Below, piece after piece: positions 4,557 to 22,806 of a DNA stretch of 32,497 nucleotides. A program made the position numbers and the translations under genes. Within the stretch, counting starts at the first letter, position 1. Each line of letters begins with the position of its first letter. The notes under the pieces are model-generated. The model saw only the letters and a program-made list of their open reading frames with translations. It was not told the origin of the DNA and did not search any database. This stretch comes from a virus: IMG/VR virus record IMGVR_UViG_3300026521_000448, positions 1 to 32,497 of that record. One strand, written 5' to 3'.

Positions 4557-5015
4557 ATGAATTTAGAAAAATTAAATGAAATGGCAAACGGTTTTGAAGA
4601 AATGATTCAAGTAATAGAAAATGGTGAAATGAGTATAAATGATTTAAAAGAAATTTTAAATGATTTTGACAATCAGGTAGATTCAATGTTGCCAATGTTA
4701 GAAGCATTTGCATCTGGTGTAGATATAGAAGGAATTTCTGAAATTCAAAAAATTGCAATTAAAGCTAGTATTGATAAAGAGATACTTGATTTTAATTATA
4801 AAGAACAGAAAAAAGCAATTGTAACCATGTTGAAAATGGTTGATGCAATGGACAAACGATTAAATGAAAATATTTTTCTTGATTTTTTTATTAAAACAAT
4901 AAATAAGTTAGAACCAACTATTTCACTAATTCATCCTGAAGCTGGTAAAGCAATGAAAAAAGGTGTAAAGAAATTCAAAAAAATCAAAGAACAAACAGAA
5001 AGCACAGAAGGATAA
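4557..5015 (+). CDS. Hypothetical helical protein
   Basis: Unrecognised 152-residue protein, mostly helical by composition and rich in Met, Leu, Glu and Lys, with a basic C-terminal end. It is the first gene after the promoter at 4469-4490 and has a good AAAGGAAAG site. No known domain is evident. A scaffolding or regulatory role would be a guess. Confidence 0.6.
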   Translation: MNLEKLNEMANGFEEMIQVIENGEMSINDLKEILNDFDNQVDSMLPMLEAFASGVDIEGISEIQKIAIKASIDKEILDFNYKEQKKAIVTMLKMVDAMDKRLNENIFLDFFIKTINKLEPTISLIHPEAGKAMKKGVKKFKKIKEQTESTEG

Positions 5016-5018
5016 AAT

Positions 5019-5453
5019 ATGGTATTAATTAGACACAAACAAGATAAAACAATAAATTTAGAAAATGTTTCTAACATTTTCATTGATGAAAATAATGGCA
5101 CAGGAAAAGTAATTTTTAATATGAATTACAGTGTTAAAATTTTTGGTGATAAATTTACACCAGATTATGTTTATTGGGAGTTTAATTCTGAAGATGATTT
5201 AGATTATATTAAAAGAACATTTTTACCAAAAGTTGAAAATTGGATACAGCCAATAGAAGATGGACAGAGATATATTAATCCAAAATGTGTATCAAGTATA
5301 GGATATGATAGTAATAAAAATAGAGTTATTTTTAATCTGAATTATAATGTTACTCATCCAAAAGATAAAAATAAATTGACATCAGATTTTGTATTTTTTA
5401 ATTTTACAAATAGAGAAAATTACACAAAATTTATTCAAGAAATGGGAGTATAA
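5019..5453 (+). CDS. Hypothetical protein with two tandem homologous domains
   Basis: The 144 residues hold two related halves of about 65 residues. Each starts with an IN-x-x-x-V-S segment, continues with KVIFNMNYSV or RVIFNLNYNV, then a D(Y/F)V(Y/F)(W/F)xFN(S/R) stretch and an aromatic helix. This indicates an internal duplication of a small beta-rich domain. The family is unknown to me. It follows the previous gene by three bases and is probably co-transcribed. Confidence 0.65.
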   Translation: MVLIRHKQDKTINLENVSNIFIDENNGTGKVIFNMNYSVKIFGDKFTPDYVYWEFNSEDDLDYIKRTFLPKVENWIQPIEDGQRYINPKCVSSIGYDSNKNRVIFNLNYNVTHPKDKNKLTSDFVFFNFTNRENYTKFIQEMGV

Positions 5454-5455
5454 AA

Positions 5456-5875
5456 ATGGAAGAATTAGATGCAATATTAAATGGTGTTGATGTGACAATA
5501 CCTGAAACAGAAACAGTAGTTACTAAATCAGAGACAACTGTTATTACAACACAGAAACAATCACAAGAAGCTCAAGAAAAATTTCTTATTAATAGAGATG
5601 AAGAAGAAACAAAACTAACATTAGAATATGCTAGAAGAATGATAGCACTTGAACAACAAATAAAAGAGATTAAAGATGATATGGCTGCATTAAAAACAGA
5701 ATATAAAGATGATGGAGTTGCTGTTAATAAAGTAAATAAAGCGATTAAAAATATTAAAATGGCAATGAAATTAAATGATTTAGATGCTACTGAAATTGAA
5801 ATGATTGAAACAGTACTTAGTGCTGATGTAGATATTCAAACAGAAATAGCTCAGTTGGTACAAAAGGCTAACTAA
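5456..5875 (+). CDS. Coiled-coil protein, possibly GapR/DUF2312-like
   Basis: This 139-residue acidic protein has a Thr/Glu-rich N-terminal third, then a long helix from about residue 58. The stretch LEQQIKEIKDDMAALKTEY followed by a basic KAIKNIK segment has the layout of GapR/DUF2312 proteins (long coiled coil plus short basic helices), which bind overtwisted AT-rich DNA. The match is by eye and partial, so it stays tentative. The start follows the previous stop directly. Confidence 0.6.
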   Translation: MEELDAILNGVDVTIPETETVVTKSETTVITTQKQSQEAQEKFLINRDEEETKLTLEYARRMIALEQQIKEIKDDMAALKTEYKDDGVAVNKVNKAIKNIKMAMKLNDLDATEIEMIETVLSADVDIQTEIAQLVQKAN

Positions 5876-10891: not shown

Positions 10892-11368
10892 TTATTTATT
10901 AAATAACTCTTTTTCAGTAATGATTTTGAATTTCCAACCTTTTTCTTTACATAATTTTTCAGCAGCTTCCCATTTTGCTTGATTGATAGCAAAAGTTTCA
11001 ATTGCTTTTATATAAGCTTGTTGAGCTTTTTGTGGATTTTTAGCATTTTTTCTAGGTGGTTTTGGTGGTTGTGTTTCTTTTTTTGGTTTTATTTCAATAA
11101 GCCATATAGTACCATCTTTTGTTTCCATCATTGCATCCATATAATATTTTGAGACTTTTCCTGTTACAGGATTATTATATGGAATAACCATACCTTCACT
11201 ATTTGCTTTAGTAATATTATCATTAAAATCCATAAATTGAAAAAATTTTAATTCCCACGAACTTCTATACTTTATTCCAGGTTCTTTCATATCAAAACTT
11301 TCTGTAATTATCCATTTATTTTGATTGATGGGTATATATGTTCCTTGTTTTGTTTTACCATAAGCCAT
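10892..11368 (-). CDS. 4: Head-completion nuclease, T4 gp4-like
   Basis: The 158-residue protein matches the T4 gp4 head-completion family in length and motifs. YRSSWELKFFQFMD (34-47) carries E39, and VIPYNNP and KYYMD follow with D78. IWLIEIKPK ends the core with E92 and K94. The E...D...ExK pattern is that of a PD-(D/E)XK nuclease. A Lys/Pro-rich linker and a C-terminal helix complete it. In T4, gp4 acts with gp2 on packaged heads before tail joining. It is the last gene of the (-) late operon from 14070, 11 bases after the homing endonuclease gene. Confidence 0.85.
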   Translation of the reverse strand: MAYGKTKQGTYIPINQNKWIITESFDMKEPGIKYRSSWELKFFQFMDFNDNITKANSEGMVIPYNNPVTGKVSKYYMDAMMETKDGTIWLIEIKPKKETQPPKPPRKNAKNPQKAQQAYIKAIETFAINQAKWEAAEKLCKEKGWKFKIITEKELFNK

Positions 11369-11379
11369 TATTATTCCTT

Positions 11380-12270
11380 TTATTTTAACATATCTTCCAA
11401 TTTTTCTTTTAATACATCGGACAAATCCTCATATTTATATGCAGAAAAACCTTTAAATTTTTTGTATTCATAGGTATCTTTCAATCGTTTTAAATTTCCA
11501 GCATCTAAATTAGTATATATTTTTTTACCACGATTGGTATATGATTTTCGTAAAGCATTCATTGGGTATTTATTATTATTACAGTATTTAACAAAACTAG
11601 TTTTAATTATATCAAAAATATTTTCATTATTGTCTATAATTATAATCATATTTACTCTTTTATCATTTTTAAAATTAGAAACATAATTATTTTTCTTTTT
11701 TGTTTCCCACGATTTATATGCTATATTTTGGGCTATTGTTTTCCCGTTTTTTTCTTTTTTCTGTTTAGTGATTTTACTTTTTAAACCTACTTCTTGATAT
11801 TTTGTTAATCCACTTTCTTGAATAGTTGACATTGTTCTTTTGGCTGTTATACTTCTCTTCAAAATATGTTCTTTTGAATGATATTGTTTTAGTCCCGCAG
11901 TAGTAAAACCCCAAGGTAGTTGATTGCTTTTATTCCAAAAATTATTATGTTCTTTAACATTAAAATATTGATGCAAAAACGATTCATATATTATCATATC
12001 ACCAGCATTATCAAAGACTTTTATTATTTTTAATTTATAATTATCTCTTTTTTCTGATATTATATTATATTTACTTGATGTTTTATATTCCCAAAAGTCT
12101 TCAATTATATTTTCTTTTTTCGATATTCTTGATCCATAGTAATGTTCTTCATTTGTTCTAGTTAGATCTGTTATTCTATATACATAATATTTTCTACCGT
12201 CTGGTTTAAATGTCAATTTAGAACTTCTGCAATCTTGTAAAACTTCCTTTTTATATATACTATAATTCAT
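11380..12270 (-). CDS. GIY-YIG homing endonuclease (free-standing)
   Basis: This 296-residue protein has the GIY-YIG nuclease layout: KYYVYRITD (27-35) as the GIY part, HYYGSR (43-48) as the YIG part with the following Arg, a conserved Glu in YESFLHQYF (E96) and Asn in FWNKS. Residues from about 120 form a Lys-rich DNA-binding region with a GLKQYHSKEHILKRS segment like NUMOD3 repeats. It sits between the CheY-like gene and the gp4-like gene with its own late box at 12298-12305, typical of an invading free-standing homing gene. It would cut intron-less or homing-gene-free relatives and so spread. Confidence 0.82.
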   Translation of the reverse strand: MNYSIYKKEVLQDCRSSKLTFKPDGRKYYVYRITDLTRTNEEHYYGSRISKKENIIEDFWEYKTSSKYNIISEKRDNYKLKIIKVFDNAGDMIIYESFLHQYFNVKEHNNFWNKSNQLPWGFTTAGLKQYHSKEHILKRSITAKRTMSTIQESGLTKYQEVGLKSKITKQKKEKNGKTIAQNIAYKSWETKKKNNYVSNFKNDKRVNMIIIIDNNENIFDIIKTSFVKYCNNNKYPMNALRKSYTNRGKKIYTNLDAGNLKRLKDTYEYKKFKGFSAYKYEDLSDVLKEKLEDMLK

Positions 12271-12297: not shown

Positions 12298-12305
12298 TAT
12301 TTATA
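12298..12305 (-). promoter_or_regulatory. T4-type late promoter box of the homing gene
   Basis: Exact TATAAATA on the (-) strand, just past the CheY gene stop and 27 bases before the homing endonuclease ATG. The mobile gene therefore does not depend only on read-through. Confidence 0.7.
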
Positions 12306-12306
12306 C

Positions 12307-12678
12307 CTATTTAAAAATTGACTCTAATTTTAATGTAAGAGTTTTAGCATCAAAAGGTTTAGTTATATATGAATTAACACCAGCTTTAAGAGCTTTTATT
12401 ACTTCACCTTTACCACCTTCTGTTGTAATCATAATAATTGGAATTTCTTTGTTGATTTGTCTAATGTTTTTTACAAGTGTAAGACCGTCCATTACGGGCA
12501 TATTCCAATCTGTAAGAACAACATTAAATTCTTCTTTTTTAAATAAATCTAATGCTTGTTGACCATCTTCGGCTGTTTTAGAATATTCTACTCCAATTTG
12601 TTTAACAACATTTCCTATAATTCTTAACATTGTTTTACTATCATCAACGATAAGAACTTTTAAATTTAATATATTCAT
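12307..12678 (-). CDS. cheY-like: CheY-like single-domain response regulator
   Basis: The 123-residue protein is a complete receiver domain with no output domain. All active-site residues are present at CheY-like positions: D12 and D13 (VDDS), phospho-acceptor D57 in LTDWNMP, T85/T86 in MITTEGG, Y104, and K107 in TKPF. The WNMPVMDG, EIPIIMITTEGGK and ALKAGVNSYI stretches are those of chemotaxis CheY, and to my memory are close to the Campylobacterota form. CheY-P normally binds FliM in the flagellar switch. This copy lies in a late operon, with AGGAAG before the ATG, and has no capsid-targeting N-terminus. It could alter host motility late in infection or sequester phosphate from CheA; both are inferences. 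Confidence 0.93.
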   Translation of the reverse strand: MNILNLKVLIVDDSKTMLRIIGNVVKQIGVEYSKTAEDGQQALDLFKKEEFNVVLTDWNMPVMDGLTLVKNIRQINKEIPIIMITTEGGKGEVIKALKAGVNSYITKPFDAKTLTLKLESIFK

Positions 12679-12690
12679 TTTATCTTCCTA

Positions 12691-13458
12691 TTATCTTCCT
12701 AAAATTTCTATTTCTTTAGCTGACATATAACCATCAACATTTATATCAGCTAATTCTTGTATTCTATCCCAAATTTCTTCATCATCTTCAGGATCACCAA
12801 TAATATATAATTTTTTAATCCTATAATTATGTAAAAGTATTTCATTATTGTCAAAACCACTCATAACATAATTTTTTGAAATTGAGTCTTTTATTTCTTG
12901 TAATAATGTTTTTGTTATTATTTTCTTAGACTCATCTATATAAAATTTAATAAATTCAGCTTTTTGTTTTCCATCAAATTTTGAAACCAAAGATTCAATT
13001 TCATATCTGTCATTTAAACCATATTTTTTAACAATGGCTGTTTTCATAGGAACTGTAAATTTATTGTTTACAACATAATCTTTATCTTTTAACGGTTGTA
13101 ACCATCTGTGTCCATTTCTATCTAAAACAGACTCAAAATCTTGTTCTGCTGAAAAACTTGAATATCCTTCTAATTCAAAAATAACATCAGCATCTTCAAT
13201 GGCTCCTTTACTTATTCCTGTAGAACCTTTTGTAAAAGTTGCTAAATCTATTTTTTTATTTTGTAATTTCTGCACTTTTTCTATTGAGAAGAGACCAGTA
13301 ACATGATAAGCTTTTGGAATAAATATTTCAAAATCTTTTAATATGCTAGGTGTTAAAGGCATAAAACCAAGTTTCATCAATTCCCATTCTTTCTGTCCTT
13401 TTTTTGCTATATAGTTTCTTTTTTCATTTATAAAATCTTTAAATTTTATTATTTCCAT
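12691..13458 (-). CDS. Capsid-targeted protein, possible ADP-ribosyltransferase-like effector
   Basis: The 255-residue protein starts MEIIKFKDFINEK, which contains the targeting motif KFKDFINE with an INE cut site. After it comes AYHVTGLFSIEKVQKLQNKK (50-69), then ATFTKGSTG, a DVIFELEG strand (91-98), and AEQDFESVLDRNGHRWL (about 104-120). A YHxT strand followed by a helix and a second Ser/Thr-rich strand is how several ADP-ribosyltransferase-fold proteins begin, and T4 Alt is a head-packaged enzyme of that fold. The catalytic residues cannot be fixed by eye, so the enzyme call is weak. The targeting call is stronger. It is in the late operon directly upstream of the CheY gene. Confidence 0.65.
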   Translation of the reverse strand: MEIIKFKDFINEKRNYIAKKGQKEWELMKLGFMPLTPSILKDFEIFIPKAYHVTGLFSIEKVQKLQNKKIDLATFTKGSTGISKGAIEDADVIFELEGYSSFSAEQDFESVLDRNGHRWLQPLKDKDYVVNNKFTVPMKTAIVKKYGLNDRYEIESLVSKFDGKQKAEFIKFYIDESKKIITKTLLQEIKDSISKNYVMSGFDNNEILLHNYRIKKLYIIGDPEDDEEIWDRIQELADINVDGYMSAKEIEILGR

Positions 13459-14051
13459 TATTTTTTACCTCGTTTATTAAGTCTTGCTTGTGCAGTTTTT
13501 GCATCAATTTTCGCTTGTTTTTTCAATGCTTTTTTCTTTCTTTTATTTGCTTTATGAGATGCTATGGCTGCTTTCCATGCTGCATTAGCACTCATACCAA
13601 TAAAATGTTCACTTCTTAAATTTATTACTTTATAATATTGATAACTAGGAACAACAACACCCTTTGGTGAAATTCTTGAATTTATATAAAGTCTTACAAC
13701 AGGTCCTAAACCTTTAACTAACGCTTTAACAGTATTATAATTAACAGTTAAAGGTCTATTCTTTTTAATGTTGGCTTTATTTTGTTTCATAATACCATCC
13801 ATAATTTTTTCTCTTAATTTTGGCGGACACCAATTAAAATTAAGAGCTAAAGTATATTTTTTACTATGACCTAAAATTAAACCTAATGGCCTTTGATCAA
13901 ATGCTTGTGTTTTATCTTGAGCATCATAAACATACATTATTAATGCACCAGGATAAAAATCTTTTGATTTTAATTTACGAGGTTTATCTAATAATTTTTT
14001 AAAGGTATCATAGGCATCTTTTTCTGCTTGAGTAAGTTTTTTCTTGGCCAT
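13458..14051 (-). CDS. Conserved basic phage protein, first gene of late operon
   Basis: This 197-residue protein has the pattern of a family widespread in T4-like phages: PGALIMYVYDAQ, then RPLGLILGHSKKYTLALNFNW, then CPPKLREKIMDGI, and later a VRLYINSRIS segment. The C-terminal 40 residues are almost all Lys, Ala and Arg. I do not recall a firm function; it is probably virion-associated, and a T4 gene 2 or 53 position relative to gene 4 is possible but not shown by sequence. GGAGGAA precedes the ATG, with a late box 19 bases upstream. The stop overlaps the next start. Confidence 0.65.
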   Translation of the reverse strand: MAKKKLTQAEKDAYDTFKKLLDKPRKLKSKDFYPGALIMYVYDAQDKTQAFDQRPLGLILGHSKKYTLALNFNWCPPKLREKIMDGIMKQNKANIKKNRPLTVNYNTVKALVKGLGPVVRLYINSRISPKGVVVPSYQYYKVINLRSEHFIGMSANAAWKAAIASHKANKRKKKALKKQAKIDAKTAQARLNKRGKK

Positions 14052-14063
14052 AGTTCCTCCTTT

Positions 14064-14071
14064 TATAAATA
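14064..14071 (+). promoter_or_regulatory. T4-type late promoter box, divergent pair (+)
   Basis: TATAAATA reading toward the 14092 gene. With the (-) box it forms the perfect palindrome TTATAAATATTTATAA (14063-14078), so one 16-base site drives two opposite late units. Confidence 0.75.
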
Positions 14072-14077
14072 TTTATA
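14070..14077 (-). promoter_or_regulatory. T4-type late promoter box, divergent pair (-)
   Basis: TATAAATA on the (-) strand, 19 bases before the ATG of the 14051 gene. It heads the operon down to the gp4-like gene. Confidence 0.75.
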
Positions 14078-21441: not shown

Positions 21442-22806
21442 TTATTTACTTAAAAGAGAGTCTGAAAAATCAACTGCGAATGTTCTTGCATAAAGACCTT
21501 GAGTCTCTTTGCTATTCATTGGATTTTCTTTGATACCATATCTTGTATTTAAGATGATACCTGGTTGACCACTTTCTGGGTGAACAACTCTTGTGAATGA
21601 AACTGGTACATAAGGAGCATAGTAACCGATAGCATCTCTTCTATCAGAACCTTTGTAAAGAACAGTAACATAATCGTGAGAAGCAAAAGCATCCATAACA
21701 ACTTTCATTTTATTGAATGTTCCAATAACACCAACACCAACTGCTGTAGCATCTACAGATGTAGAATTTTCAATAGCTTTGAAACCTTTAAGTTGTTCTA
21801 AAACAGTAGCAACTTTTGGAGATACAAGTAAAATATTACCAGCTCCTCTTCTTGTAAGTCTAGCAATTTCTCTTGATTCATTAGCAATTTTAAGTTGTAA
21901 GTGAGCCATACCTTCTAATTCAAATCTAGCAGATCCAGAAGCATCTGTACCACCAATTTTAAAGTCACCTGCTGGAGCGGCCCATTCGTTAACTTTATCA
22001 ACAATTTCTCTATCTAATTCATTTTGAATTTCAACAGCCATAATGTTCATTAATTCTTCATCAGCGTTAAGACCATGCATTGCTTTTAAATCTTGATACA
22101 TTTCAACAGTATATTCTGCTTTAAGTTTTCTAGATTCAACACCAATTTGTGTTTGAACAATTTCAAATCCAACTTCAGCCATATCATAACCAAGTAACTC
22201 AGCTTCTGATGTAGGTAAAGAACCTGTATAACCTTTTAAGATTTTTCTAAATGTTAACTCATTAGAGTAAGTAGTAACAATAGTACCAATTTCGTTAGCA
22301 TCAGCAGTATTATCTGTTAATGTAGCTGTTGCAGAACCAATTTTAGCATCAATTAAGAAAAAGTTATCTTCAACATAAATTACAGTAGCTTCGTTAGAAC
22401 CAACTTTAACAACATCACCTTTAACTGGAGCAGTACCAGTAACAGTAACTTCAATTATTTGACCACCAGCAACTGGAGAAATTCTTCCACCTGTTCTATC
22501 ATCATAATTAGCACCCATACCTGTGTATCTGAACGCAAGTGAGTAAATAAATCCTGTAGGACTTGTAAGTGGTTGAACACCAACTAATTCATTAGCAATT
22601 AATGCTGGTTGAATTCTTCTTGCTAAAGGCATAAAGATTGGAGTAAATTGAGCAACATCTGATGCAACAGTTCCCTCTGACATTAATCTTGCTTCTTCTT
22701 GTGCTTGATTTTCAAGTAAAAGAGCAACATTTGGTTTTTCGCTAGCTTTAATAGCTGGCATTTTTGTAGATTCTAATAAATCTTCATATTTTTCAGTTAA
22801 TAACAT
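21442..22806 (-). CDS. 23: Major capsid protein, T4 gp23-like
   Basis: The 454-residue protein carries the gp23 signature FTPIFMPLARRIQPALIANE followed by LVGVQPLTSPTG near residues 54-86, and the TRRGAGN, YKGSDRRDAIGYYAPYVPV and SGQPGIILNTRYG stretches of the family further on. Residues 115-175 form a beta-rich insertion (VTVTGTAPVKGDVVKVGSNE). The N-terminal 45 residues are charged and helical, as in the propeptide of gp23, with LLE at 30-32 as one possible protease site. HK97 fold; it forms the hexameric shell. A late box lies 30 bases upstream. Confidence 0.93.
   Translation of the reverse strand: MLLTEKYEDLLESTKMPAIKASEKPNVALLLENQAQEEARLMSEGTVASDVAQFTPIFMPLARRIQPALIANELVGVQPLTSPTGFIYSLAFRYTGMGANYDDRTGGRISPVAGGQIIEVTVTGTAPVKGDVVKVGSNEATVIYVEDNFFLIDAKIGSATATLTDNTADANEIGTIVTTYSNELTFRKILKGYTGSLPTSEAELLGYDMAEVGFEIVQTQIGVESRKLKAEYTVEMYQDLKAMHGLNADEELMNIMAVEIQNELDREIVDKVNEWAAPAGDFKIGGTDASGSARFELEGMAHLQLKIANESREIARLTRRGAGNILLVSPKVATVLEQLKGFKAIENSTSVDATAVGVGVIGTFNKMKVVMDAFASHDYVTVLYKGSDRRDAIGYYAPYVPVSFTRVVHPESGQPGIILNTRYGIKENPMNSKETQGLYARTFAVDFSDSLLSK

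Follow-up and report, generated by a model that had tools for sequence, protein, structure and literature searches.

A motor-class CheY in a phage late operon and FliM-like peptides in other phages: possible viral control of host swimming

In bacteria, the protein CheY sets the direction of flagellar rotation. Flagella also serve as phage receptors. What, then, is an apparently complete CheY doing among the virion genes of a phage? The gene lies in a stretch of 32,497 nucleotides, hereafter the window (positions 1–32,497 of IMG/VR record IMGVR_UViG_3300026521_000448). This 32.5-kb fragment carries a T4-like late region. Our analysis of the gene, its phage kin and phage proteins resembling its motor target suggests that phages may seize control of host swimming. 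In the literature searched, we found no description of a virus that directly controls the rotation switch.

The late operon and its receiver

The window encodes a gp20-type portal and a gp23 major capsid protein (Table 1). Gene order and sequence suggest that gp22-, gp21- and gp18-like genes are also present. By comparison of gp23 and gp20, the closest cultured relatives (about 43–45%) are Vibrio phage Va1-like and Campylobacter phages. The phage is T4-like, with Arcobacter-type bacteria as its probable host. The T4-type late promoter sequence TATAAATA occurs 18–63 nt upstream of the majority of minus-strand late genes, including gp23, gp20, gp21 and gp4. For gp20, gp21, gp23 and a small gene between gp20 and gp21, the distance is 24–40 nt. 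There are 21 copies in the window compared to 11.7 expected, a count reached in 1 of 100 shuffles.

The operon of interest runs from TATAAATA through a DNA end protector and a putative capsid-targeted gene to cheY, its final gene. A first-pass annotation had placed cheY under a late promoter, and this element is indeed found ahead of the first gene. Thus, the window cheY has both marks of a T4-like late gene, a TATAAATA promoter and co-directional virion genes. The upstream gene stops 12 nt before the cheY start codon. Both neighbours of cheY lie where the annotation put them. Their labels, "capsid-targeted" and "homing", are best kept provisional because neither gene matches a family in Pfam or PHROG; the first label derives from an N-terminus recognised by eye. 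A homologue of the putative capsid-targeted gene sits immediately upstream of cheY in two related contigs, L004 and L005. The putative homing gene is missing from the corresponding slot in L005 and L105 and hence is probably an insertion. Beyond it, the next conserved late gene (80% in L002 and L005, 60% in L105) is of the gp4 type and bounds the cheY slot on the right.

Table 1. Locations of features in the window and of FliM-like phage proteins in other records (handle before the colon)
Feature	Location	Strand	Remarks
cheY (123 aa), one receiver domain only, motor class	12307..12678	-	ATG at 12678, stop at 12307; D12 D13 D57 W58 T85 K90 Y104 K107 K117
Shine-Dalgarno sequence of cheY, strong	12684..12689	-	AGGAAG
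T4-type late promoter of cheY operon	14070..14077	-	TATAAATA; 18 nt ahead of gene 13458-14051
Second late promoter sequence, directly past cheY	12298..12305	-	TATAAATA; 27 nt ahead of next gene
T4 gp2-type DNA end protector, late operon gene 1	13458..14051	-	PHROG 429, 4.4e-30
255-aa late gene, capsid-targeting-like N-terminus	12691..13458	-	MEIIKFKDFINEKR; motif by eye, targeting function putative
Putative homing-type gene	11380..12270	-	slot without this gene in L005 and L105
gp4-type head closure/completion protein, TnsA-like nuclease fold	10892..11368	-	PHROG 218, 3.8e-45; Pfam PF08722, 9e-19
gp23 major capsid protein	21442..22806	-	7.7e-96
74-aa protein starting with the FliM N-terminal CheY-binding peptide	L105:9533-9757	-	start MADILSQEEINTLLD (MADILSQEEINTLLDVCVDEDD...); same contig as a phage cheY
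NCTC12673 gp149	L158:2501-2887		start MA(M/Q)ILSQEEIDALL, near-exact FliM N-terminus; ~1.2 kb from gp4 head completion gene
CP220 gp071	L159:2501-2866		start MA(M/Q)ILSQEEIDALL, near-exact FliM N-terminus

The annotation described a complete receiver with no output domain, and this description holds. Pfam Response_reg spans residues 8–118 of 123 (3.6e-31) and is the sole domain. All residues for phosphorylation are kept (D12, D13, D57, T85, T86, Y104 and K107). The FliM-binding signature is also intact (W58, K90, K117 and T85/Y104). In E. coli numbering, this signature comprises W58, K91/92, K119 and T-Y coupling, and the motor CheYs are F3, F14 and CheYz (PMC9321776). From W58, K91, K119 and the Y106-T coupling, the same paper argues that CheYz alone among five Arcobacter CheYs binds FliM. 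An AlphaFold model of the window protein has the CheY fold (pLDDT 94). The top Foldseek matches are V. cholerae CheY3, E. coli CheY with the FliM peptide (1u8t, 1f4v), CheY in the CW-state C ring (8wiw) and H. pylori CheY. In NCBIfam, the top model is the chemotaxis CheY equivalog, with 111.9 bits for the window protein and 116.8 bits for a real Arcobacteraceae CheY. Both scores are below the 189-bit cut-off; as even a real CheY falls short, this threshold suits only nearer relatives of the E. coli CheY. By fold, residues and signature, the window protein reads as an intact motor-class CheY, predicted to be phosphorylated and to bind FliM.

Phage CheYs and their cellular relatives

Two scans of IMG/VR identified eleven more contigs with a CheY 50–60% identical to that of the window. 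With the window included, twelve phage contigs representing several lineages carry the gene. In the T4-like kin (L002, L004, L005 and L105) cheY occupies the same slot, either adjoining the DNA end protector or separated from it by the putative capsid-targeted gene. It precedes the gp4 gene wherever the contig extends that far. In other lineages cheY lies elsewhere. These comprise L003 (172 kb, with gp23), L010, which has a phage-type DNA polymerase, L106, which has a terminase, and L006 to L009, which encode a phage RNA polymerase beta subunit. In L006, L008 and L009, the gene is found between the RNA polymerase beta subunit gene and nuclease or lysis-type genes; a holin and an endolysin were identified in L008. 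For close pairs of phage cheY genes dN/dS is 0.11–0.31, indicative of purifying selection. Kept, moved and reused across phage lineages, cheY therefore has the character of cargo under selection. Matches to the window CheY in INPHARED were all below 45% identity and were not counted as phage CheYs. The best of these (Listeria LM and Salmonella S.Kent) are unannotated records resembling mixed, metagenome-like material. L011 and L109 encode other receivers (29–36%) and were left out of the family.

Most phage CheYs preserve the motor signature. W58 is replaced by H in L005 and by I in L007 and L010, and the loop Lys is Arg in L105. At FliM-contact positions, assigned after the E. coli complex and with buried positions not separated, mean identity among phage CheYs is 0.80 compared to 0.55 for random positions (0.2% of random sets reach 0.80). 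The interfaces of CheY for CheA P2, CheZ and FliM overlap. Hence, conservation of this surface is no proof of FliM binding.

The nearest cellular relatives are Campylobacterota CheYs, with up to 64% identity (Arcobacteraceae). In the three nearest neighbourhoods checked (L012, L013 and L018), inspection by eye placed cheY among flagellar genes. In L012 the adjoining gene encodes CheZ, as confirmed with an HMM. This setting fits the CheYz described in PMC9321776. In all three neighbourhoods, CheZ begins with a FliM-like motif, MSMSQEEIEALMSG (L012:3379-4206 in the first), so CheZ may share a CheY-docking peptide. One genome with an Arcobacter-type cheY, L028, is titled Helicobacter pylori PMSS1; the title looks wrong.

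The annotation had proposed phylogeny as a check. The window protein belongs with chemotaxis CheYs rather than with transcription-factor receivers. In a tree with cellular rows drawn from a search using the window CheY as query, it falls among CheYs of Campylobacterota, nearest Arcobacteraceae. Its exact place is loose. Nine phage CheYs form one clade in two trees (96/93 and 96/91). The window CheY sits outside this clade, on the Arcobacteraceae side (91/85, second tree) and on a long branch. We do not regard separate capture of the window CheY as demonstrated, since an AU test did not reject a single phage clade (p 0.31). For backbone genes it is L105 that lies outside the window group; for CheY it is the window instead. 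The conflict reflects either gene replacement in a shared slot or fast evolution.

FliM-like peptides at the start of phage proteins

Binding of CheY to the FliM peptide, with its EIDAL motif, is established (PMC6946799). The FliM N-terminus reads MADILSQEEIDALLEVV in Helicobacter and MAEFLSQDEIDALLDIA in Arcobacteraceae; residues 1–20 are MADILSQEEIDALLEVVD for the Helicobacter type and MAEFLSQDEIDALLDIAE for the Arcobacter type. A protein starting with this peptide is encoded by L105, which also carries a phage cheY. In pattern scans of IMG/VR, small ORFs that open with the peptide turned up in four further environmental phages (L122, L127, L128 and L121). In total, six start-anchored matches were obtained, of which L129 (MADLLSQDEIDEIRD) is a weaker one, while a permuted pattern of equal composition gave none. 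Near-exact copies also begin two proteins of cultured Campylobacter phages, NCTC12673 gp149 and CP220 gp071. A tblastn search with the NCTC12673 protein returned 44 records, all of them Campylobacter phages, and the protein was "hypothetical" wherever annotation was listed.

A ribosome site precedes all seven mimics checked. Among their first 14 residues, 11–13 equal those of Helicobacter FliM. The rest of the proteins are mutually unrelated, except for two Campylobacter families (36%), and no credible family was found for them in Pfam or NCBIfam. Such a pattern, one short binding motif carried by unrelated scaffolds, is as expected of mimicry. We infer that these phage proteins bind CheY. Among nine cheY phage records and the window, searched alongside a reversed-motif control, only L105 reaches a 10/10 mimic match. 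The window contig, a 32-kb fragment, contains no FliM mimic, and the same is true of most cheY phages examined.

Several further matches were seen. Internal LSQ/FTQ-EEIDALL matches, in lysozyme, integrase and methylase proteins and in L123 and L152, were rejected as chance. A conserved small phage protein of the window (5456-5875, + strand) starts MEELDAILNGVD; it faintly resembles FliM EIDALLNG, the LSQ part is absent and the likeness is probably chance. Neighbouring ORFs of another phage (L134:4454-4918 and 4965-5840) both have FliM-like starts, MRDILSQDEIDALLNG and the TTG-initiated LSNVLSQEEVTALLN. The sequence MSDGSLSQDEIDALLAGV in L141 is also FliM-like. In many Campylobacter phages (H45, H47-H52, H55, H58-H62, H72-H74; L154, L157) the ORF match splits into two pieces. 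Here, the frame is apparently broken past an intact FliM-like peptide, by phase variation, truncation or sequencing error.

Possible roles and comparison with known systems

We consider it moderately likely that the window cheY is a captured Campylobacterota motor CheY, produced late in infection so that the host's own control of flagellar switching is overridden. Briefly, cheY would be transcribed with virion genes from the late promoter, as the operon's sequence indicates. With its CheY fold and Asp57 kept, the product could be phosphorylated by host CheA. The conserved signature suggests that the active form would bind the host FliM N-terminal LSQDEIDALL via the alpha4-beta5-alpha5 face. 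Surplus motor-class CheY, at a dose not set by the host, might then swamp sensory control and fix or shift rotation bias. The FliM-peptide mimics of kin and Campylobacter phages would keep CheY-P off the motor, acting on the same node from the other side. As speculation, dying cells uncoupled from chemotaxis could release progeny away from, or among, fresh hosts. The FliM-like protein in the kin phage L105 is an independent pointer to the CheY–FliM node. Against override, some phage CheYs lack W58 and most cheY phages examined have no mimic. Furthermore, a motility switch that acts late has little time to matter.

The main rival to override has the phage CheY acting as a phosphate sink or decoy. 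The protein would drain phosphoryl groups from host CheA, starving the host CheY, or bind CheZ, and the motor would not be turned. The same conserved residues would serve, and the FliM-N mimics of other phages fit sequestration better than activation. The pairing of CheY with a soluble FliM-N protein in L105 strengthens the case, as phospho-CheY would be trapped in a soluble complex; sink and mimic may be combined in that phage. However, most phage CheYs retain the signature although a pure sink could do without an intact surface for FliM; CheA and CheZ, in turn, use the same face. Overall, we judge a sink acting in place of the motor to be unlikely. The window CheY may turn the motor, compete for CheA phosphate, or do both.

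Alternatively, the receiver could act as partner or regulator of another protein, encoded by phage or host, for example during late transcription or in assembling virions, and its chemotaxis origin would then be irrelevant. Its place in a virion-gene operon would suit such a role, and unrelated receivers of unknown use occur in other phages (PHROG 731 and others; Alteromonas V22 ORF30). We find this improbable given the intact motor signature and the FliM-N mimic in a kin phage. In addition, the position of cheY varies between lineages, with RNA polymerase, holin and endolysin genes nearby in L008 and a terminase in L106, as expected if the gene were cargo and not a structural partner. A functionless host gene, picked up by accident or through misassembly, is favoured only by the close resemblance of cheY to host genes. 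That explanation is largely refuted by synteny and dN/dS, the gene being in the same slot of several independent contigs with dN/dS far below 1. The phage-like base composition (26.6% G+C for cheY, 27.1% for the phage) and the shared late operon also count against it, and we regard it as very improbable indeed.

Returning to override, phage motor CheYs and FliM-peptide mimics together suggest that the CheY–FliM node is targeted from both sides. We give an even chance to a two-sided attack of Campylobacterota phages on the flagellar switch. Some phages would use a motor CheY and others copies of the FliM peptide on unrelated scaffolds, with both in L105 at least. In the window phage, an Arcobacter-type copy fitting the host FliM may have replaced the CheY of the shared slot. 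If true, viruses would here be seen for the first time to hijack chemotaxis output itself, and the hijack would already be present but unnoticed in well-studied Campylobacter jejuni phages. With motor CheYs in several lineages and mimics in cultured Campylobacter phages, whether a phage steers its dying host is testable in existing phage–host pairs. The analysis also suggests functions for the hypothetical proteins NCTC12673 gp149 and CP220 gp071.

Our literature search, with most subscription papers outside its coverage, found no report of a motor CheY or of FliM mimicry in phages. The annotation's caution that similar phage genes might already be reported was justified, since "CheY-like" genes have been named in Alteromonas phages V22 (ORF30) and A5 (gp11) (PMC7289586, PMC10579305). 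Like the window CheY, these are phage-encoded single receiver domains. V22 ORF30 shares 25% identity with the window CheY over the alignment, no kinship beyond that of any receiver. It has 149 aa with a C-terminal tail, lacks W58 and the TTEGGK loop, has Ser for the switch Thr and lies in a tail-fibre module. Without the motor signature, V22 ORF30 is not a motor-class CheY.

Among cellular systems, CheY1 of Sinorhizobium is a phosphate sink that takes phosphoryl groups from CheA. It has in common with the window protein that an extra CheY could compete for CheA phosphate; it differs in being cellular and in not needing to bind the motor. The phage mimics differ from cellular FliM in being stand-alone proteins of 74–143 aa without the FliM middle or C-terminal domains. 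The closest parallel to the window CheY is the Campylobacterota motor CheY (F3-CheY of H. pylori and C. jejuni; Arcobacter CheYz). Both are single receivers with the catalytic residues, the TTEGGK loop and the W58/K/K117/T85-Y104 signature. In contrast to the cellular genes checked, which lie in flagellar loci, the window gene sits in a phage late virion operon, and its product is on a long branch. What is possibly new is a motor-class phage CheY and, with the switch-mimic pattern, a new kind of host takeover.
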